This document shows positions 1,467 through 28,795 of a DNA stretch of 64,000 bases, piece after piece. The position numbers and the translations under genes were made by a program. The stretch comes from an uncultured Bacteroidota bacterium (GTDB lineage Bacteria; Bacteroidota; Bacteroidia; 2-12-FULL-35-15), in contig CAINDA010000052.1 of the NCBI GenBank assembly GCA_903847205.1, positions 62,001 to 126,000 on the forward strand, read 5' to 3'. How positions within the stretch are numbered: position 1 is the first letter of the stretch; every line of letters begins with the position of its first letter. The notes below the pieces were generated by a model. It was not told the DNA's origin, did no database searches, and saw nothing but the letters and a program-made list of their open reading frames with translations.

Positions 1467-4400
1467 ATGAAACGATTGTTGCCATTATTTATTTATCAGG
1501 AGGAATTTCTTTACACTTTCTTCCTCATCTGTTTCTTAACGATATTCACAAGAACAAGTGTTTTTGCCCAGTCGGCCTGTCCCGCAGTTTCTATTACTCC
1601 TTCTAATGTTGGTATTTGCAATGGCTGCACTAACCTTACAGCTCACGTGCAAGGGAGTGTTTCAACAACTTCTTATTCTGTTTCGGCCATACCTTATGTT
1701 CCATTTTCTTTTAATACAGGCACGCCGATTCTTGTAAACATTGATGATCAATGGTCAAATGTAATTACCATTCCGTTTTGTTTCCAGTTTTATGGAAACA
1801 CTTATAATCAATTAGTAATTGGTTCAAATGAGATAATCTCTTTTGATTTATCATATGCTGGAGGAAGCTGTCCCTGGAATTTAAGCGGTGCCCCAATTCC
1901 AACAAATACTTTACCCACAAATAGTATTATGGGGCCTTATCAGGATATTGACCCGACAAATATGGGAAACATTTATTGGCAGATTACCGGTACAGCACCC
2001 TGCCGCACATTTGTTGTTTCGTTTTTTAACACTCCCTACTTTGGCGACCCGAACAGCGTTAGTCCTGGTTATTGCACAGGTCCTCTGTTTGCTACGAGCC
2101 AGATTGTTTTCTATGAAACAACAAACATTATTGATATTAATATTCAAAACAAACCCGATTGTAATGGATGGAACAGCGGTTTTGCTATTGAAGGAATTCA
2201 GAATGCAGCCGGAACGAATTCGGTAACTGTTCCTGGAAGAAATCGCACTGTTTGGACAGCCAACAATGACGCTTATCGTTTTACTCCAACGGGAGCGCCG
2301 CAATATAATTTAACATGGTATGATCCAGCAAATACTGTTATCGGCACTTCACCGACTATAAGCGTATGTCCTACTATTACTACCACCTACAGGGCAACAA
2401 TAGTGAATACTACCTGCAGCACCCCTCTTACCGTCTCTGCCACAGCAACTGTAACTGTAAATCCAAGCCCTGCGCCCGTAATAACAGCAAACGGTCCTAC
2501 CACATTCTGCTCCGGAGGAAGCGTTACCCTTGATGCGGGTTCCGGCTACAGCAGTTATTCCTGGAGCAACGGGGCTGCCACACAGACTATAAATGTGACT
2601 GCTTCCAGCACACTTACCATAACAGTAACTAATAGTTTCGGATGCACCGGTACTGCATCTATGGCGGTTCTTGTTAAACCCGTTCCTTTTGCTATTGCAA
2701 GTTCCTCATCGCAAACGCTATGCTCCGGAGACTCAACTTCTATTGCGTTAAGCAGTTTTACACCGGGTACTACTTTTTCATGGACGGCATTATCTACAGG
2801 GGTCAATGGTGCCTCAAACGGTTCGGGAGTCTCTATCAACCAAACCTTAAACACTTCAGGAACAAGTCAGGGCACAGTAATGTATACTATTACCCCGACA
2901 GCAAATAGCTGTATAGGAAATCCAATTAATGTGATAGTTACTGTTAATCCTGTTCCTTCGGCAACAGCAATCCCGGCAACACAAACAATTTGTTCGGGAA
3001 GCACAGCTTCAATTGCATTAACAAGCAATGTTTCAGGAACTGCATTCACATGGACCGTAACAGAAACAGGAGCTTCTGGCGGAACAAACGGTTCTGGATC
3101 AAGTATTACAGATATTCTTATTCCAACCGGCTCTGTTCCAGGCACGGCAGTTTATATAATAAGCTCAGCAGCAAATGGGTGCTCAGCCCCGTCCGATACA
3201 GTTATTATTACAGTTAATCCTAATCCCGGAGCTGTAGCCTCTGCAACTCCTGCATCAGCAACAGTTTGTTCAGGCGATAATACAGCTATTGCTTTAAACA
3301 GCACTTCACCCGGCACCACTTTTTCCTGGACTGTTTCACAAGCCGGAGTCAGCGGTGCCGCTCCCGGCACCGGCGCATTAATTGCGCAGACATTAACAAT
3401 TACCAGTGCATCACAAGGCACCGCAGTTTATACCATTACTCCTTCGGTAAATGGCTGCAGCGGAAATCAAATAACTGTTACTATTACTGTTAACCCCATT
3501 CCTGCTGTCTCAGTTACCGGAAGTGCGCAAACCATTTGTTCCGGGAACGCCGATTCTATTTCAATAACAAGTAACCTGCCGGGAAGTACTTTTATGTGGA
3601 CAGCGCTGCAGGCGGGTGTATCGGGAGCTACAGCAGATTCAGGCGCAGTTATTTCTCAAATATTGATTGCAGCAGGAAGTTCGGCAGGAACTGCTGTTTA
3701 TAATATAATCGCAGCAGTAAACGGATGTCAAAGTTCGTCTCTGATCTACACTGTAACTGTTAAACCGGCACCTGTTATAACAGCCCTTGCAGCATCGCAC
3801 GTTATTTGTACCGGAGGCAGCACACCCATTGTATTATCAAGTAATTTAACAGGCACGAATTTTTCCTGGACTGCTGTTCAGACGGGTGTTTCAGGGGCCT
3901 CTCCAGGATCAGGATCAAACATTGGGCAGCTGTTAACCCTTACCGGAACAGGAGCCGGTACCGCATCATACATGATTACATCTGTTACGGCCGGCTGTAT
4001 TGGAGCACCAATAACTATAACAGTTACAGTTAATCCATTGCCTGTACTTAATATTTCTTCCGTTGTAATTAACCCTGTAAATTGCCATAACACAGGCGGT
4101 TCAATATCCAATGTTTTGATAACATCAGGACAAAATCCATTTACTTATCACTGGAAAGATTCGCTGGGCAGCACAGTTGGAACGTCCGACAATCTTGGAA
4201 ATACTGGGGCAGGAAAATATACATTAACTGTCACCGACAGCAATGGATGTTCTGCGACTTCGACACCATTTACAATCGGCGCAGCAGCTCCTGTTACTGC
4301 CTCTTTTAGCTCAAATCCAATGAGCGGCGAAACCCCTTTAACCGTTGCTTTTACCAACAACAGTGTTGGTGCATCGACCTATTTCTGGACCTTCGGCACC

Positions 4401-21085: not shown

Positions 21086-22414
21086 TTATTTCTTCCTCAA
21101 GTATTTGATAACCGCTATTAACGGAGGAACTGTTGTCAGCAGCAGGCCGGTAAAAATCCCGACTCCTGCCCAGGCAAATGAAACAAGGTAAGGGTCAATT
21201 TTCTGCATAATTTCCTGAAATGTAAGTTTGTTTTCGATGACTAACATTCCCTTTTCCGCACCGGCGATAACCAGAAAAATCATAAATAAAAGGAGTGAAA
21301 CATTTGTAAGCCAGAACCCAACTCTGATAATGTTTTTTTGAACGTTAACAAATTCGAATTTTGTTACATCGCTTATAATAAATAAAACAGATGCCAGTAA
21401 AATCATTGTGTTGATGCCAATTGCACTTCCCATTGCATGAGCCACGGTGATGTGGGTTCCGTGAGTATATATATTAACGGCAGGTATAGAAATTAAAATG
21501 GCAAGTATTAAATTTAAAAATATCCATATATCAGATGCCACTAAAAAACGAAACGGTAAAAAATAATAATCTTTTTTTGCCTGCTCCAATGAGCTCTTCC
21601 AGTTCCATATTATTTTTGAAAGTATCAATAATTCAGTCATGCTGATGCCATACGAAAGGTACCGTATCCAGGGGGCTGTAGGAACAATATAAATATGGTG
21701 AGCCCATCCGAACATTAGGTTGGTAAGCCCTAACAGGTACATCCAAAATGCCAGCTTTGATTTAGCAACACTTTCATCTCCTTTAATCCGCTCCATTACA
21801 AAAAGAGCTGTTCCGTAAACCAGCATATTCCAGGATCCCACCAATGCCCCTCCGGCTTTCCATTGTACAGTAAGGTCGCGGATTAAATTATTTCTGAAAT
21901 ACGGAAACACCCATAGATAGGCTTCTGTGAAAGTGAACAGAAAAAAACAGATCCCTGTTGCCCACATCCATAAGTAAACCGGCCACTGCCCTATTTTTTT
22001 CAGCACTGTTTTAAAATAATTAATGCCGAATAAAACCCAGGAAATAAATACCGGGATTGCCAGGATGGCCGGAAACTCCCAATACTCGCGCCCGCCGAAT
22101 TTACCCATCATATAACTTGTAATGATAAGCAATCCTGTAATAAAAAAAAGCCAGATATGTACAACCGCCATTTTTCTTGAAAAAAGAGGCAGTCCGCAGT
22201 ATTTAGGAAGATAATAATAGATGCCGCCCATGGCACTCAAAAATATCCATGAAACAACAAGCGACACATGGAGAGGCCTGTTTTTAAAGAAGGGAATCAC
22301 ATCGAAAAACCCAGGATATACAAATTGAAAAGAGCTGATGGTTCCAAAAAACAAACCAGCCAGCAAAGCTGTTATAGAAAGAAAAATAAAAACTATTCCG
22401 ATTTCTTTTTTCAT
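21086..22414 (-). CDS. NorB-like haem-copper-superfamily subunit I with unusual metal ligands
   Basis: A 442-residue, about 12-helix membrane protein of the nitric oxide reductase/cytochrome oxidase subunit I superfamily. Aligned by eye to cytochrome-c-dependent NorB, it keeps RPLH (H49, haem b), WAHH (H239/H240, Fe-B) and NIYTHGTHITVAH (H326, haem b3). Three key positions differ. The NorB motif HLWVEG reads NMLVYG here (N196 for the Fe-B histidine, Y200 for the glutamate). The second haem b histidine of the HxH motif is methionine (H326-A-M328). Ordinary NO reduction by the cNOR mechanism therefore cannot be assumed. It overlaps the cytochrome c gene by 4 bp and belongs to a crp-norC-norB unit. 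It may be a divergent NO reductase family member, another gas or N-oxide enzyme, or a sensor. Superfamily membership is secure, but the function is not. Confidence 0.8.
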   Translation of the reverse strand: MKKEIGIVFIFLSITALLAGLFFGTISSFQFVYPGFFDVIPFFKNRPLHVSLVVSWIFLSAMGGIYYYLPKYCGLPLFSRKMAVVHIWLFFITGLLIITSYMMGKFGGREYWEFPAILAIPVFISWVLFGINYFKTVLKKIGQWPVYLWMWATGICFFLFTFTEAYLWVFPYFRNNLIRDLTVQWKAGGALVGSWNMLVYGTALFVMERIKGDESVAKSKLAFWMYLLGLTNLMFGWAHHIYIVPTAPWIRYLSYGISMTELLILSKIIWNWKSSLEQAKKDYYFLPFRFLVASDIWIFLNLILAILISIPAVNIYTHGTHITVAHAMGSAIGINTMILLASVLFIISDVTKFEFVNVQKNIIRVGFWLTNVSLLLFMIFLVIAGAEKGMLVIENKLTFQEIMQKIDPYLVSFAWAGVGIFTGLLLTTVPPLIAVIKYLRKK

Positions 22415-22836
22415 AAATTGGCTTTTTGCATAATGGTGCCGTCAAATTTTATTTCGAAATTTTTAACCGGCGAGAAGCCTGTCTTATCAACATATTTGAG
22501 ATACGATGTTAGTGCATTAACATCATTTTCGCTGAGATGAAAATTAGGCATTCGCTGGGTACCGCTTTGAATAAAACTTTTTGCATACAGCTCCCCTTTG
22601 CCTCTTTCTGAGATAACATTGGTAAGATCTGGTCCCATGTAGCCTCCGAGCCCGTAAATTTGGTGGCAGGAAATGCAGTTGTACTCCTGAAATAATAATT
22701 TCCCGGCTTTGGATTCCTCTGTTATATAAGCTTTGGCCGGATCGTTTTCTGTCCCGGAAGTATATATAACAATGCTGTTTATGATAAATAATGAAATTAA
22801 GCCCCAAAAGAGAAATCGTTTTAATAAGATCGACAT
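22411..22836 (-). CDS. NorC-like membrane-anchored cytochrome c
   Basis: A 141-residue protein with one N-terminal transmembrane helix (about 8-26) and a periplasmic mono-haem cytochrome c domain. The haem-binding motif is C54-I-S-C57-H58, and the likely sixth ligand is the methionine of QRMPNF (about residue 96). The region QEYNCISCHQIYGLGGYMGP is typical of NorC, the electron-donating subunit of cytochrome-c-type NO reductases. Its stop overlaps the start of the norB-like gene (4 bp), and it begins 21 bp after the Crp/Fnr gene. The three genes are almost certainly one transcription unit. It presumably delivers electrons to the NorB-like subunit. Confidence 0.85.
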   Translation of the reverse strand: MSILLKRFLFWGLISLFIINSIVIYTSGTENDPAKAYITEESKAGKLLFQEYNCISCHQIYGLGGYMGPDLTNVISERGKGELYAKSFIQSGTQRMPNFHLSENDVNALTSYLKYVDKTGFSPVKNFEIKFDGTIMQKANL

Positions 22837-22857: not shown

Positions 22858-23589
22858 TTATTTATCATTTTCGGTTGCAATTATTGCAAGAGCCTCTGGA
22901 TCGTTTACGACAATTTTGGTGTTTTGAATCGAAAGAATTTTTTTATCCGTGAATTCTAAAAGAATTTTATACATATAGTCTCTTGTAGTTCCCACTAGGC
23001 TTGCCAGGTCAGTCACAGTATAATTAATGCAAGTTTCTGAGCTGCTTTCTGAGCTGATTTGTTTAGCCGCAAAAACAAGTATTTCGGCACATTGTTCCCG
23101 TATGTTTTTCCTGGAAATACTGGCAATTCGCTGTTCAACAAAATCTAGTTTATCACACACTTTCTTCATTAACTGAACAAATACCTGAGGTTCTTTATTC
23201 AAAAGAATCTTTAAACCAGGTGCAGGTAAAAAACATGTGCTGACAGGCTCTCTGGCAGATGCAGAAAAAGAAAAAACATCATCATTGATGAATGAATTTA
23301 AACCAACAGTATCGCCCGCACCGGCAATCCATAAAATAAATTCTTTTTTCCTTGTTCCTTTTTGAGAAATTTTTACACTGCCTTTTTTAATGCAGTAAAC
23401 ACCAGTTAAACAATCACCGCTTTTTACTAAATATTCGCCCTTCTTGTACTCTATTGTCTTTCTGTCTAAAAATTTTTCCACCATGTGCTGCAAAGAATAA
23501 TTTTTAAAAGTGGCAAAACTATTGAGCCAGCAGTTTTCACAACTGCCAGAAACGGCTGCAACAGGAATGCTATTTATATCGGTGTTCAT
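22858..23589 (-). CDS. Crp/Fnr family transcriptional regulator (first gene of the norCB-like unit)
   Basis: A 243-residue Crp/Fnr protein. It has an N-terminal cyclic-nucleotide-like beta-barrel (about 30-140, containing YKKGEYLVKSGD and GVYCIKKGSVKIS), a dimerisation helix and a C-terminal winged helix (about 185-225, TVTDLASLVGTTRDYMYKIL). The ATG at 23589 is chosen because a longer frame starting at 23667 would begin inside the operator and upstream of the promoter. Near the N terminus there is a C-x2-C pair (SCENCWLN), reminiscent of the N-terminal cysteine cluster in FNR-type sensors, but a full four-cysteine set is not evident. A 14-bp operator centred about 42 bp before the predicted transcription start suggests autoregulation and control of norC-norB. 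An NO or redox signal is inferred from context. Confidence 0.87.
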   Translation of the reverse strand: MNTDINSIPVAAVSGSCENCWLNSFATFKNYSLQHMVEKFLDRKTIEYKKGEYLVKSGDCLTGVYCIKKGSVKISQKGTRKKEFILWIAGAGDTVGLNSFINDDVFSFSASAREPVSTCFLPAPGLKILLNKEPQVFVQLMKKVCDKLDFVEQRIASISRKNIREQCAEILVFAAKQISSESSSETCINYTVTDLASLVGTTRDYMYKILLEFTDKKILSIQNTKIVVNDPEALAIIATENDK

Positions 23590-23623
23590 TAGAGATTGGG
23601 CTATTACTATTAATTCATCGAAG

Positions 23624-23667
23624 CAAAAGTAGAGCAGCATCAATCTTAAAACAATGATACCAGTCAT
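23624..23667 (-). promoter_or_regulatory. promoter and Crp/Fnr-type operator of the crp-norC-norB unit
   Basis: On the minus strand, ATGAC-TGGT-ATCAT (23667-23654) is followed by a TTG at the -33 position, 20 nt, and then TACTTTTG (23631-23624), a match to the -7 consensus TAnnTTTG. The operator centre (23660.5) is 36.5 bp from the last base of the -7 octamer. That puts it at about -42 from the expected start, the class II activator position of Crp/Fnr proteins. The expected leader is about 29 nt. Confidence 0.7.
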
Positions 23668-23815: not shown

Positions 23816-23859
23816 ATGATATAAATCATATAATAGCTCTTATTATCAATGCAATTTTG
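23816..23859 (+). promoter_or_regulatory. second Crp/Fnr-type operator with promoter-like element, facing tauE
   Basis: ATGAT-ATAA-ATCAT at 23816-23829 is followed on the plus strand by CAATTTTG at 23852-23859. This is a one-mismatch -7 element whose last base is exactly 36.5 bp from the operator centre, the same geometry as at 23660 and 28880. Transcription would run rightward and give tauE a leader of about 490 nt. Confidence 0.5.
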
Positions 23860-24358
23860 GCTTCGGTTTCTGACTGCATTGAAAGCGCCGAAACTTATAT
23901 TGAACGATGATGTTATAATTAGAATCGGGGGATGAAATTGAAGAGGGGATTCCGCAAGAAAAAAATCAATAGAAAAATAATTATTAATCGATGGCGTGGA
24001 AGAAATTCCAATGCGCTGAAACAATTATCTTTGTTGAGGTAATTCGAAAACCAATAATAACTATTATTGTCACTAAAAGCGGAATAAAAGAACCTGCATT
24101 GTCAAAGAATACCCTTCTTTTATCCGCTTCAGACTGAAATTTAAAAGTTGCTTAATAGTATGGAATTAATGGCTGCCGGGGCCGACCGAAAAATATAATA
24201 TGATACGCATCATTTTTTTCAGCCGTTTGTTTTTCAAATTCGTGAAATGTGTTTTGCTGTATAACCTGTTTAATCGGGCGGCAGAAATATCATCAGAGTT
24301 TTTTTTATTGATTTTTGATATTTAAAAATTGACTAACCATATATAAAAAATCGGGACC
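23860..24358 (+). other. leader or intergenic region before tauE with hairpin and a third operator copy
   Basis: No recognised gene lies here. A 36-codon basic frame starts at an ATG after GGGGG (23932-24042), but nothing else supports it. A hairpin with arms of 16 and 15 nt, one base bulged, and a 22-nt loop spans 24077-24129; the arms are AAGCGGAATAAAAGAA and TTCTTTTATCCGCTT. A further operator copy, ATGAT-ACGC-ATCAT, lies at 24200-24213 but has no -7 element at the spacing seen at the other sites. The hairpin could be an attenuator or a terminator. Confidence 0.35.
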
Positions 24359-25140: not shown

Positions 25141-25590
25141 ATGCAAGAAAAAAAAAGACATGCCGTTTTTATAAATGGAGCAATCAGTCCTCAGTTTATT
25201 GCTGATTCAATTGCGAAACACAGTACAAAAAAAACCATCGGCGCACACGATATTTTTCTTGGGCAGGTGAGAAGCGACGTTATCGAAAATAAAACTGTAC
25301 AGTCCATTGAATACAGTGCGTATGAGGAAATGGCTGAAGAAAAATTTCATGACTTACGCGAAGCCGCCTTTGCAAAATTTGAACTGACATGCATGCATAT
25401 TTATCACAGCATAGGCAGCGTAAAAGCCGGCGGAATATGCCTTTTTGTGTTTGTTTCAGCAGAGCACCGCGCATCGGCATTTGAAGCTTGCCGCTATATT
25501 GTTGAAGAAATAAAAACACATGTACCAGTATGGGGAAAAGAAATTTTTGAAGATGAAACATTTGTCTGGAAAGAAAACGCAAAAAACTAA
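25141..25590 (+). CDS. moaE: molybdopterin synthase catalytic subunit MoaE
   Basis: A 149-residue MoaE. The large subunit of molybdopterin synthase transfers sulfur from MoaD thiocarboxylate to precursor Z (cPMP) in cytoplasmic molybdenum cofactor biosynthesis. Visible motifs are GAHDIFLGQVRSD, IEYSAYEEMA, HSIGSVKAGG and the C-terminal IKTHVPVWGKE, which carries the conserved catalytic lysines. It lies 32 bp after tauE and 68 bp before the moaC-mogA fusion on the same strand. No moaD or moaA is present in the window, so other Moco genes must be elsewhere. Confidence 0.93.
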   Translation: MQEKKRHAVFINGAISPQFIADSIAKHSTKKTIGAHDIFLGQVRSDVIENKTVQSIEYSAYEEMAEEKFHDLREAAFAKFELTCMHIYHSIGSVKAGGICLFVFVSAEHRASAFEACRYIVEEIKTHVPVWGKEIFEDETFVWKENAKN

Positions 25591-25658
25591 TTTGAAAATG
25601 TATCGGCGTGCGGATTTACTGATGGAATAATTTAATTAACAAATTGTCAAATTAATAC

Positions 25659-26570
25659 ATGGTTGATATCACATTTAAATCAAGCAGTCTAAGGGAAGCT
25701 ATTGCGCAGGCGGTTGTTAAGGTTAGCAGGCAGGAAACCATTGATGCACTCAAAAACAAAACCGTTCCGAAAGGCGATGTTTTTGAAATGGCAAAAACGG
25801 CCGGCTTATTTGCAGTGAAGCGCACCTCTGATATGATCCCTGACTGCCATCCGCTGCCAATTGAATTCACAGCTGTCCGTTATGAAATCAAGGGTATGGA
25901 AATTCATATTGAAATGGAAGTACACACTATTTACAAAACAGGTGTTGAAGTAGAAGCAATGCACGGCGCTTCAGTTGTGGCTCTTACAATGTACGATATG
26001 CTGAAACCGATTGATAAAGGAATTGAAATCAGCACCATTAAACTAAAAGAAAAAAAAGGCGGCAAATCCGATTTCACAGATAAGTTCAGAAAAGATTTAA
26101 AAGCTGCTGTTATCGTCTGCTCCGACAGTGTTTCGGCCGGCGCTAAAGAAGACAAAGCGGGTAAAACAATTATTAAAAAATTAGAAACATGCAAAGTTTC
26201 TGTTTCTGATTATTCTATTCTCCCTGATGAAATCCTTGTTATACAAAATAAGGTGAATACGCTCTGCGGATTAAAAAATGATATTATTATTTTAACAGGC
26301 GGCACCGGCCTTTCTCCGCGTGATGTTACACCCGAGGCTATACGCCCCTTGATAGATAAAGAAATTCCCGGAATAATGGAAGCTGCCAGAAATTACGGAC
26401 AGGACCGCACACCTTTTTCAATGCTTTCAAGAAGCACAGCAGGCATGAAAGGCAGTACACTCATTCTTGCACTGCCTGGTTCAACAAAAGGGGCAAAAGA
26501 AACAATGGATGCATTGTTCCCTTTTATCCTTCATATTTTTAGAATTATTGAAGGCGCTCCGCATGAATAA
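25659..26570 (+). CDS. bifunctional MoaC-MogA (cPMP synthase / molybdopterin adenylyltransferase)
   Basis: A 303-residue fusion of two molybdenum cofactor enzymes. Residues 1 to about 150 are MoaC, which with MoaA makes cyclic pyranopterin monophosphate, with [11 protein letters not shown] and [17 protein letters not shown]. Residues about 150-303 are a MoaB/MogA-like molybdopterin-binding domain that adenylates molybdopterin, with [29 protein letters not shown] and the [19 protein letters not shown] loop. MoaC-MogA fusions are known in Bacteroidota and actinobacteria. It sits between moaE and a Crp/Fnr gene. The cofactor would be needed by a molybdoenzyme such as nitrate reductase, none of which lies in this window. 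Confidence 0.93.
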
Positions 26571-26620
26571 ATGAAGACAAAATATTAAAATTTTAAATTT
26601 CATCTGCAAAAACAAATTAG

Positions 26621-27358
26621 ATGTTAAACGAAACTGAAAATGTCAAAAAAATAAAGGAGCGCACTGTGAATGCATTCGAAGCATTTTTGTCTGCCTATTG
26701 CTCTGAGGAGTGGATCTTCTTATTAAAAAATCATTTAAAAGTAAAGAGTTTCAAAAAAGACGAACGAATTATTTCAGAAGGCGATAAAGTTACCGGCGTT
26801 TACTTCATCAATAAAGGAATGGTAAAGGTTGTTTCGCTTTTCGATAAAACGAATGAGCGGATTTTGCGCCTTGCCAATAAGGGCTCTTTAGTGGGCCACA
26901 GAGGTTTGTATTCTAGGCTTTACCCTATTTCTGCAATTGCATTATGCGACACAGAAATGACTTTTATGCCCATTGATATTTTCACAATTTTAATTAAAAC
27001 AAATCCAGACTTTAGTCTTTTCCTGATCACCTTTATTTCTGAAGAGCTGCGTAGAGCTGATGAACAGATGAAAAACATGATTCACGGCGAAGTGATAACA
27101 AGAATTGCAATCATCATCTGTATGCTTATTGATGCTTTTGGGTATGATACAAAAGAAAAATCCAAACTTAATTATACGCTTTCACGCAGGGATATTGCCA
27201 ACATTGCCGGCACTACTTATGAGAGCGTGATTCGAAACCTTACTCAGCTGGAAAATAAAAAAATAATTAAAGTGGATGGAAAGTGTTTCGTAATCTCAAA
27301 GGAGGCCGAACTCAGGAAAACAGCCGGACATCATGGTTATCAGAACAAGGTACAATAA
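26621..27358 (+). CDS. Crp/Fnr family transcriptional regulator (end of the moa unit)
   Basis: A 245-residue Crp/Fnr protein with a cNMP-binding-like beta-barrel (about 35-150, FKKDERIISEGDKVTGVYFINKGMVKVV), a long dimer helix and a C-terminal winged helix (about 185-225, SRRDIANIAGTTYESVIRNLTQLE). The recognition helix keeps Glu and Arg at the positions used by FNR to read the TGA part of its half-site. The only cysteines are scattered, so an FNR-type iron-sulfur cluster is unlikely, and haem-based NO sensing as in DNR proteins is possible but not provable here. It is 50 bp after moaC-mogA and convergent with the DUF1858 pseudogene. Confidence 0.87.
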   Translation: MLNETENVKKIKERTVNAFEAFLSAYCSEEWIFLLKNHLKVKSFKKDERIISEGDKVTGVYFINKGMVKVVSLFDKTNERILRLANKGSLVGHRGLYSRLYPISAIALCDTEMTFMPIDIFTILIKTNPDFSLFLITFISEELRRADEQMKNMIHGEVITRIAIIICMLIDAFGYDTKEKSKLNYTLSRRDIANIAGTTYESVIRNLTQLENKKIIKVDGKCFVISKEAELRKTAGHHGYQNKVQ

Positions 27359-27816: not shown

Positions 27817-28795
27817 TTAGCCTAACAGCTCTTTTTCCAATGCGGCTGCCTTCGGGAAAAAAATATTATTTTCAAGATGAATCTGCTGATGAAGATCGTC
27901 TTCAAATTCCTTTAGTTTCGCGTATGATAAACGAAAGGTTGTGCAGGCATCATCAGGAGGAGTATAGCTGTCAGTAAGGTTTTTGATGTGTTCCAATATA
28001 TTCCCGACCTGTTCGTGTTCCATTTCCATCATATTAATCGGGTTTTGGATTGTACCGAACAGTGAGCCCTCCATTACAGTTCCATTTTTTTTAGCCTCTG
28101 CTAATTTTTTAATGTAAGGGAAAAGCACATTTTCTTCCTTAACCATGTGTCCAATAAGCTCATTTGCCGCTTTTTGAAAATTACCAGCAATTTCAATTGC
28201 CTCCGGATGCCTTTCTCCATGAACTCTTGCAACTTTCTGTGTGTATTCGGTAATAACAGGTATTGCTGCAACTACGTATTTATGATGTGTATTTAAAATA
28301 TATTCCGCTAAAAAACCAAGCTCCCAAATATTATAATCCTGAGAAGAGGCCGCTGGTGTTTCGCCAATTGCTTTAAGTTCTTTTTCTATCTGAACCACAT
28401 CCAGCCCTTTTTCCTTGCACGCTTTGGTCAATGTTTTTTTTCCACCGCAGCAAAAATCTAATCCAAATTTTTTTTAAACTTCAGCTTTGCGAAAATCTTT
28501 TGTAACCAAATCCCCTATTGTTGATTCTTTTTCTCCTTCTTTCAGTTTGCTGATCTGTACTTTCCACCACTCCGGGCCTTCTGACAAATACTGCCACCCA
28601 AATGCATTTCCTCTTTCGGCAAGTAATTGATAATACAATGGTTTAGGATCATTGATAATACAATGGTTTAGGATCATGGTCATTGTGAATGATAAATGTT
28701 TCCCCTTTTTCAAGTGAATCAAATTTTTCAAAAATTGTCGGATGTTTTAAGCGCGGCTCTAACAACGTAACATCAAGAATATCTATTGTTTCCAT
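27817..28795 (-). pseudogene. DUF2249-Ric (NO-stress iron-sulfur cluster repair) fusion gene with two lesions
   Basis: Three pieces read on the minus strand form one protein. From the ATG at 28795, a DUF2249 domain starts METIDILDVTLLEPRLKHPT and runs to NDHDPKPLYYQ, where a 25-bp tandem duplication shifts the frame into TGA (28651-28649). After the duplication DUF2249 resumes (LLAERGNAFGWQYLSEGPEW) and passes into the ScdA_N domain (STIGDLVTKDFRKAEV). There an in-frame TAA (28476-28474) occurs one codon before KKFGLDFCCGGKKTLTKAC. The di-iron hemerythrin-like part then runs intact to 27817 with HMVKEENVLFP, EMEHEQVG and HQQIHLENN. Removing one repeat copy and replacing the TAA gives about 317 codons. 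Ric proteins repair nitrosylated iron-sulfur clusters. As it stands, the Ric part has no ATG after the TAA. Confidence 0.8.
28628..28677. repeat. exact 25-bp tandem duplication inside the DUF2249 domain
   Basis: Bases 28628-28652 are repeated identically at 28653-28677. Because 25 is not a multiple of three, the second copy shifts the reading frame of the DUF2249-Ric gene. Removing one copy restores the continuous reading PKPLYYQLLAERGNAF. A duplication of this kind can revert by slippage. Confidence 0.95.

Follow-up and report, generated by a model that had tools for sequence, protein, structure and literature searches.

A NorCB-like complex of Bacteroidota, predicted to lack the helix VI metal ligands, forms its own clade and is tied to clade II nitrous oxide reduction

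Two overlapping genes on a 64,000-nucleotide stretch of DNA from an uncultured Bacteroidota bacterium (GenBank assembly GCA_903847205.1, contig CAINDA010000052.1, positions 62,001 to 126,000; this whole stretch is referred to as the window) encode a NorB-like membrane subunit and a NorC-like cytochrome c. Comparison with related genomes shows that the predicted two-subunit membrane complex, denoted NorCB-like, belongs to a clade of its own next to the cytochrome c-dependent and quinol-dependent nitric oxide (NO) reductases (cNOR and qNOR), found here in Bacteroidota. Genome content, gene order and palindromes tie this complex to clade II nitrous oxide (N2O) reduction and to the repair of NO damage. 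As judged from the encoded residues, it is a variant of the NO reductase (NOR) or haem-copper kind; we do not class it as a cNOR, since several features that define cNOR were looked for and not found. We are highly confident that the clade is distinct and conserved and that the residue mapping given below is correct.

Active-site residues of the NorB-like subunit

Three metal-ligand histidines are the signature of the haem-copper superfamily. In cNOR, these are the ligands of the non-haem iron (Fe-B), one in helix VI and two in helix VII, and helix VI also carries Glu211 (the Fe-B glutamate) and Glu215. A preliminary description of the sequence had reported the open reading frame and the residues H49, N196, Y200, H239, H240, H326 and M328 as we find them. 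It had also read the cNOR motif HLWVEG as NMLVYG, which would make Asn and Tyr ligands of Fe-B and place the Tyr at the His+4 position of A-type oxidases. This part is contradicted by hhalign, hmmsearch, phmmer, a shift scan and residue spacing: the register is off by 7-8 residues.

When 43 family members were aligned to 15 cNORs (hhalign, probability 99.9, 427 columns), cNOR EGVWE paired with V192-G193-S194-W195-N196, and hmmsearch alignments concurred on G193/W195. In an ungapped scan of helix VI against cNOR, placing the Fe-B His at residue 188 was the best of 30 shifts (0.66; mean -0.89, standard deviation 0.43), and the scan against CcoN, the cbb3 oxidase subunit, placed the Cu-B (copper) ligand His at residue 189. 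A metal-ligand His at residue 196, as in the preliminary description, scored -0.62 (cNOR) and -1.31 (CcoN). From this His to the tandem His, every cNOR examined has a distance of 51 and every CcoN one of 50; in the NorB-like protein, these spacings arise only with residues 188 and 189, while a register at 196 would require 43. It should be noted that the helix VI register is based on sequence profiles and spacing, and that for CcoN it was taken from the hmmsearch alignment and the shift scan only, hhalign against CcoN slipping in helix VI.

The family set, compiled from 48 loci and additional genomes, comprises 107-108 distinct members, full or partial. Among 107 distinct homologues, the Fe-B His position (G188) is occupied by Y (41), G (34), N (26), L (4), A (1) or S (1) and never by His, so that no homologue with an ordinary helix VI His was found. 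With V192 in place of Glu211 and N196 in place of Glu215, helix VI has, under this alignment, lost both metal-ligand residues, His and Glu, which goes further than the loss proposed in the preliminary description. N196 and Y200 are genuine and invariant, yet map outside the ligand positions: Y200 is His+12, and the residue at His+4 is V192. The survey proposed in the preliminary description shows the Asn, Tyr and Met to be fixed: N196, Y200, K186, H239, H240, H326 and M328 are invariant, the helix VI invariants being W185, K186, G189, N196 and Y200. H49 and H318 are likewise retained and invariant, which bears out the earlier statement that H49, H239, H240 and H326 are kept. Also invariant are E261 (= Glu280) and E110 (= the Ca-site Glu135), equivalences that come from the hhalign alignment, with E110 recognised by its GREYxE motif; the THGT motif of cNOR is retained as well. 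A bis-His low-spin haem b as in cNOR is not predicted, invariant M328 standing in place of the helix X His; that Met takes the place of the second ligand of haem b (H-x-H reading H326-A-M328) had been identified correctly. His/Met ligation of the low-spin haem b (His49/Met328) is plausible, and a haem of this kind is expected, from general haem chemistry, to have a raised potential.

Family distribution, selection, phylogeny and fold

Of 295 Bacteroidia genomes, 60 contain the NorB-like family, and a clear gap separates the scores (at least 415 bits versus at most 78). Outside Bacteroidia there were two partial matches, in other classes of the same phylum. Compared to the nearest relative, the nonsynonymous divergence (dN) is ~0.09 and the synonymous divergence (dS) ~2.5; the resulting dN/dS of ~0.04 shows strong purifying selection at the level of the coding sequence. 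The loss of metal ligands could be taken for decay of a cNOR allele, the refuting case that the preliminary description had named; the probability of this is negligible in view of the dN/dS, the residues invariant in 107 homologues, the presence in 60 of 295 genomes and the separate clade. A single family match in the genome-survey table has an internal stop, an in-frame TAA within the match (L107, G120:C7:79749-81065).

A tree of 54 rows places the 27 family rows together in a single group (SH-aLRT 99); cNOR (96), qNOR (99) and CcoN (100) each form a group of their own as well. The family lies outside the cNOR clade, and cNOR joins qNOR instead; with CcoN as the outgroup, the family sits beside cNOR+qNOR on a long branch whose exact attachment is unsure. 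A profile comparison covering cNOR, CcoN and qNOR ranks cNOR nearest (up to 123 bits), followed by CcoN (up to 84), and the match to the qNOR profile is weak. By sequence, the closest solved relatives of the NorB-like protein are Pseudomonas aeruginosa cNOR (E 4e-16) and cbb3 CcoN.

The AlphaFold2 (AF2) model, built with the family alignment as input (pLDDT 89.9, pTM 0.91), has its best fold match (VIA-align) in cNOR 4xyd (Z 43.4, root-mean-square deviation 2.1, 419 aligned residues), followed by cbb3 8smr (Z 42.6) and cNOR 3o0r (Z 41.8). VIA-align rows less than 1 Z apart are ties, and structure alone therefore cannot part cNOR from cbb3; sequence profiles do part them. An oxygen reductase with a new active site would fit the closeness of the fold to cbb3 CcoN, and we regard it as most improbable: Tyr is found neither at the A/B-type position (V192) nor at the C-type position (L233, six residues before the tandem His, where cbb3 has its cross-linked helix VII Tyr), the cbb3 Cu-B His corresponds to G189, the window genome already has two other COX1 proteins, and the candidate regulon and gene order described below point to nitrogen oxides.

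Association with clade II nosZ

The product of nosZ destroys the greenhouse gas N2O. Among the 295 Bacteroidia genomes, clade II nosZ was found in 48 of 60 with the family and in 47 of 235 others (odds ratio 16, p 7e-18). When the genomes were collapsed to 155 genera, the corresponding numbers were 33 of 38 and 28 of 117 (p 5e-12); within the genus of the window, they were 11 of 16 and 0 of 20 (p 7e-6). The two genes are at most 17 kb apart in 11 of the 48 genomes having both. At two loci (L145, L146) the pair adjoins, on the same strand, the genes for the nos cytochrome c, NosZ, NosL, NosD and NosF; at a third (L092), it is divergent from the nos genes and separated from them only by crp and one other gene, the nos names being verified there by NosZ TIGR04246, NosD TIGR04247 and NosL PF05573. 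The link to nitrite reductase (nir) is weak (p 0.01 overall). Of 79 genomes with nosZ and no nir, 34 have the family without cNOR or qNOR, one has only cNOR and 37 have none of these, cNOR and qNOR presence being scored by a search with one Bacteroidia cNOR that may miss distant NORs.

These figures bring in the main rival explanation, that the complex is a redox module of N2O respiration and no longer an NO reductase. Fe-B would be absent and haem b3 vestigial or electron-transferring, and the complex would pass electrons between quinol or cytochrome c carriers and the cytochrome supplying NosZ, or keep the NosZ copper sites reduced. Such a role would agree with a nosZ link far stronger than the nir link, with the same-strand position beside the nos cytochrome c and nosZ at L145 and L146, with the loss of the Fe-B ligands and the usual absence of NorQ and NorD, and with the high potential expected of a His/Met haem. 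We nevertheless consider it rather unlikely: 12 of the 60 family genomes, including that of the window (rated 100% complete), have no nosZ, 37 of the 79 genomes just mentioned have neither the family nor cNOR or qNOR, and the strictly kept tandem His, haem b3 His and Glu280 would be superfluous in a pure electron conduit. Feeding NosZ cannot be the whole story because of the same 12 genomes. As an NO source in family genomes without nosZ, the nitrite reductase NrfA was considered and rejected (0 of 9 have it).

The gene pair, its neighbours and a shared palindrome

The features in the window are listed in Table 1. The NorC-like and NorB-like genes overlap by 4 bp. As in cNOR, the subunit with haem c (CxxCH, Met) is encoded beside NorB; the consensus NCxxCHQxyGLGGY..GPDLT....MP is common to 108 NorC-like homologue sequences, and the GGY of NorC, a cNOR-like trait, is retained. 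Together with the Ca-site Glu, these residues make electron delivery look intact, as had been proposed.

Table 1. Positions in the window of the genes, residues and palindromes discussed in the text
Feature	Position	Strand	Basis or remark
NorB-like membrane subunit, 442 amino acids, atypical haem-copper-superfamily subunit I	21086..22414	-	COX1/PF00115, 126 bits
Helix X motif HGTHITVAHAM, residues 318-328	21431..21463	-	H326 = haem b3 ligand; M328 replaces second haem b ligand His
Tandem His H239-H240 (helix VII), remaining two Fe-B/Cu-B ligand His	21695..21700	-	Invariant, 107 sequences
Helix VI segment QWKAGGALVGSWNMLVYG, residues 184-201	21812..21865	-	By alignment, G188 = Fe-B His, V192 = Fe-B Glu, N196 = Glu215 position
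NorC-like mono-haem cytochrome c, 141 amino acids	22411..22836	-	PF00034/PF13442
Crp/Fnr-family regulator, first gene of same-strand run	22858..23667	-	PF00027 + PF13545
Palindrome ATGATATAAATCAT upstream of operon, candidate Crp/Fnr-type site	23816..23829		Exact ATGATN4ATCAT
Second palindrome ATGATACGCATCAT, same intergenic region upstream of operon	24200..24213		Exact ATGATN4ATCAT

Apart from the NorB-like protein, the window genome has just two COX1 proteins: as judged from length and sequence, one is a fused CcoNO-type protein and the other is taken for an A-type oxidase. It therefore has no canonical NorB. TIGR02376 (NirK), TIGR04246 (NosZ) and PF02335 (NrfA) have no match in this genome. 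Close to the pair, the window also contains a RIC/ScdA-type iron-sulphur repair di-iron protein (27817-28431, minus strand) and a group of genes for molybdopterin synthesis (MoaE, MoaCB fusion; 25141-27358, plus strand) with a second Crp/Fnr gene nearby; no nitrate or nitrite reductase was identified beside these genes.

In 45 of 48 loci, the family gene has a NorC-like gene next to it, and in 27 of 48 a Crp/Fnr gene is near the pair. The other recurrent neighbours are the ScdA/RIC di-iron repair protein, NadA/NadB, class III or B12-dependent ribonucleotide reductase, fasciclin and proline dehydrogenase; together, the recurrent neighbours make up an anaerobic and NO-stress theme. The exact palindrome ATGATN4ATCAT occurs twice in the window versus 0.08 expected, and none of 100 shuffles contained two. 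In relatives, it is found ~50 bp upstream of scdA (8 of 25) and nadA (7 of 29) and near nos cytochrome c genes (4 of 17), at a density per kb ~8-13 times that of the background; coding DNA is part of this background, which somewhat inflates the contrast. The classical FNR box TTGATN4ATCAA, with 2 mismatches allowed, is not enriched in the window. Since the palindrome is common to the operon, scdA, nadA and nos cytochrome c genes, it suggests a single candidate Crp/Fnr-type regulon that would cover NO repair, N2O reduction and the NorCB-like complex.

The same palindrome, along with the same-strand run with Crp/Fnr in the window and the Crp/Fnr genes near other pairs, could be taken to indicate an NO-binding scavenger or sensor, in which haem b3 would hold NO tightly without turnover and signal or buffer it with the adjacent regulator. 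This is improbable: the Crp/Fnr adjacency is not constant, and a pure sensor is not favoured because the NorB-like subunit almost always comes with an electron-delivering cytochrome c and neither a signalling nor a kinase domain was found. Of the earlier proposal, a distinct enzyme class or a sensor, the first half stands, as a distinct branch of the haem-copper superfamily that is not a plain NO reductase.

Two other kinds of neighbouring gene were observed. A protein of 410-430 amino acids with 12 transmembrane (TM) helices, which matches no Pfam or NCBIfam family, is encoded in crp-X-(fasciclin)-NorC-family operons and next to nosZ (L025:3512-4756, L092:13142-14428 and L094:6257-7504, all on the plus strand). 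According to its AF2 model (pLDDT 81; TM-score 0.72 to cbb3 CcoN and 0.71 to cNOR), it is a second cryptic protein of haem-copper fold; its helix II contains an invariant His and its helix VI reads H186-F-Q-Y-N190-G, but the tandem HH is missing, roughly the reverse pattern of loss. In many Bacteroidia loci, single or tandem beta-eliminating lyases (tyrosine phenol-lyase/tryptophanase) adjoin the pair, including L018:2731-5537 (TIGR02618, 743 bits for 2731-4152), L092:16126-17574, L182, L183 and L186.

Proposed function

We tentatively prefer the reading that the complex is a cytochrome c-fed NO-handling enzyme with a remodelled site, whose function is NO removal. Electrons would enter from a cytochrome c in the periplasm, reach haem c of the NorC-like subunit, cross the conserved interface at the Ca site to a high-potential haem b with His49/Met328 ligation and arrive at haem b3 (His326), where NO would be bound and removed, most likely by slow reduction to N2O. 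In the remodelled site, only His239/His240 would serve as protein ligands for any non-haem metal, and proton delivery and the stabilisation of ligands would fall to the invariant E261, N196, Y200 and K186. In cells that reduce N2O and mostly do not denitrify, such an enzyme would shield NosZ and the oxidases from environmental NO and feed N2O to NosZ. Fast NO reduction by the cNOR mechanism is disfavoured because of the lost Fe-B His and Glu.

Several observations weigh against NO removal. First, the Fe-B His and Glu are gone, while cNOR needs Fe-B (PMC13036017). Second, NorQ and NorD insert Fe-B into cNOR, which is inactive without it (PMC13036017, PMC9976466), and they neighbour only 3 of 147 family loci, compared to 11 of 11 (NorQ) and 10 of 11 (NorD) Bacteroidia cNOR loci; the flanks of the family loci vary and many are short, 65 distinct loci having at least 4 kb on both sides. 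Third, nosZ is missing from 12 of 60 family genomes, as noted above. Fourth, the nosZ-positive, nir-positive genomes without cNOR or qNOR carry the family in 5 of 8 cases, versus 48 of 95 for all nosZ-positive genomes. Co-occurrence with nitrite reductase was considered as support for NOR function and discarded, as it vanishes given nosZ. Finally, Cloacibacterium are N2O-respiring, non-denitrifying Bacteroidota used to cut farmland N2O. The only phenotype of possible relevance is that of Cloacibacterium CB-01, which has a 'cNor' and yet 'minor NO reductase activity' (PMC11168931); it speaks against a fast NOR. Judging from the genome proportions above, this cNor is likely to be a member of the NorCB-like family. 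None of 42 genomes matched the 16S primer specific to Cloacibacterium.

Because NorQ/NorD adjoin so few family loci, the non-haem metal of the family is probably altered or absent. The three exceptions (L031:576-5921, L033 and L043), which belong to Flavobacterium or a near relative, have the norQ and norD genes upstream of the pair on the same strand, in the order norQ-norD-x-COX3-like-x-OsmC-NorC-like-family, and a canonical norB was not seen on the examined stretches of these loci. Given this gene order, the chaperones may serve the NorCB-like complex there. Possibly, these are nor operons in which norCB was replaced by the NorCB-like family. This arrangement is expected if metal is inserted into a NOR-like enzyme, and it counts in favour of NO removal. 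A bolder version, that the clade dispenses with the Fe-B/Cu-B metal altogether, carries out NO chemistry or serves N2O respiration through a site with haem b3 only and a His/Met haem b, and has often been counted as cNOR in genome surveys of bacteria acting as N2O sinks, seems to us possible but doubtful.

Implications for annotation

A description of this clade was not found in the literature searched; the main NOR-diversity paper or its supplement, outside that search, may mention it. Since the clade is large, conserved and actively maintained, yet lacks the helix VI His and has Met at the low-spin haem, it offers a direct way to test which components of the binuclear centre NO chemistry requires. 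Given that 34 of the 79 nosZ-positive genomes without nir have the family alone and one has cNOR alone, the proteins called 'cNor' in Bacteroidota that respire N2O and do not denitrify may in many cases be members of the NorCB-like family. If so, the reassignment would fit the minor NO reductase activity of CB-01 (PMC11168931) and would alter which strains count as potential N2O sources. In three plasmid cNOR records (L149, L150, L153), the canonical NorB is publicly annotated as 'cbb3-type cytochrome c oxidase subunit I'; therefore, name-based surveys can confuse NOR, oxidase and the NorB-like family.

Comparison with known systems

The family resembles cNOR in its two genes, norC-norB, in its fold, and in the haem b3 His, the tandem His, Glu280, the Ca-site Glu and the THGT motif. 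It differs from cNOR in the missing helix VI His/Glu ligands of Fe-B, in Asn196 for Glu215, in Met328 for the haem b His, in the usual absence of NorQ and NorD, and in forming a separate clade. With cbb3 CcoN (C-family), it has in common the fold (Z ~42) and the QW motif with which helix VI begins, whereas the helix VI Cu-B His, the catalytic Tyr and CcoO/CcoP are missing and the profile match is weaker than to cNOR.

In putative NO dismutases (NODs), one Fe-B His is replaced by Asn and a nearby Glu by Gln (PMC3413370). Fe-B His and Glu are altered in both groups, and Asn occupies the place of the Fe-B His in 26 of the 107 family members, which brings in a dismutase-like enzyme (2 NO to N2 + O2) with an altered Fe-B environment and no net electron need. 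Such an activity is very improbable here: the position is variable (Y/G/N/L), the NorCB-like family has lost more ligands, and a NOD is a single-chain relative of qNOR that has lost electron entry, whereas the family is a two-gene complex that keeps complete cytochrome c entry and, with its weak qNOR profile match, shows no specific kinship to qNOR. According to PMC11388526, the alternative NORs sNOR, gNOR, nNOR, eNOR and bNOR are related to B-family oxygen reductases; they resemble the NorB-like family in their changed active-site residues and, by their descriptions, differ from it in that the family is nearest to cNOR and then to CcoN and has a haem c subunit.
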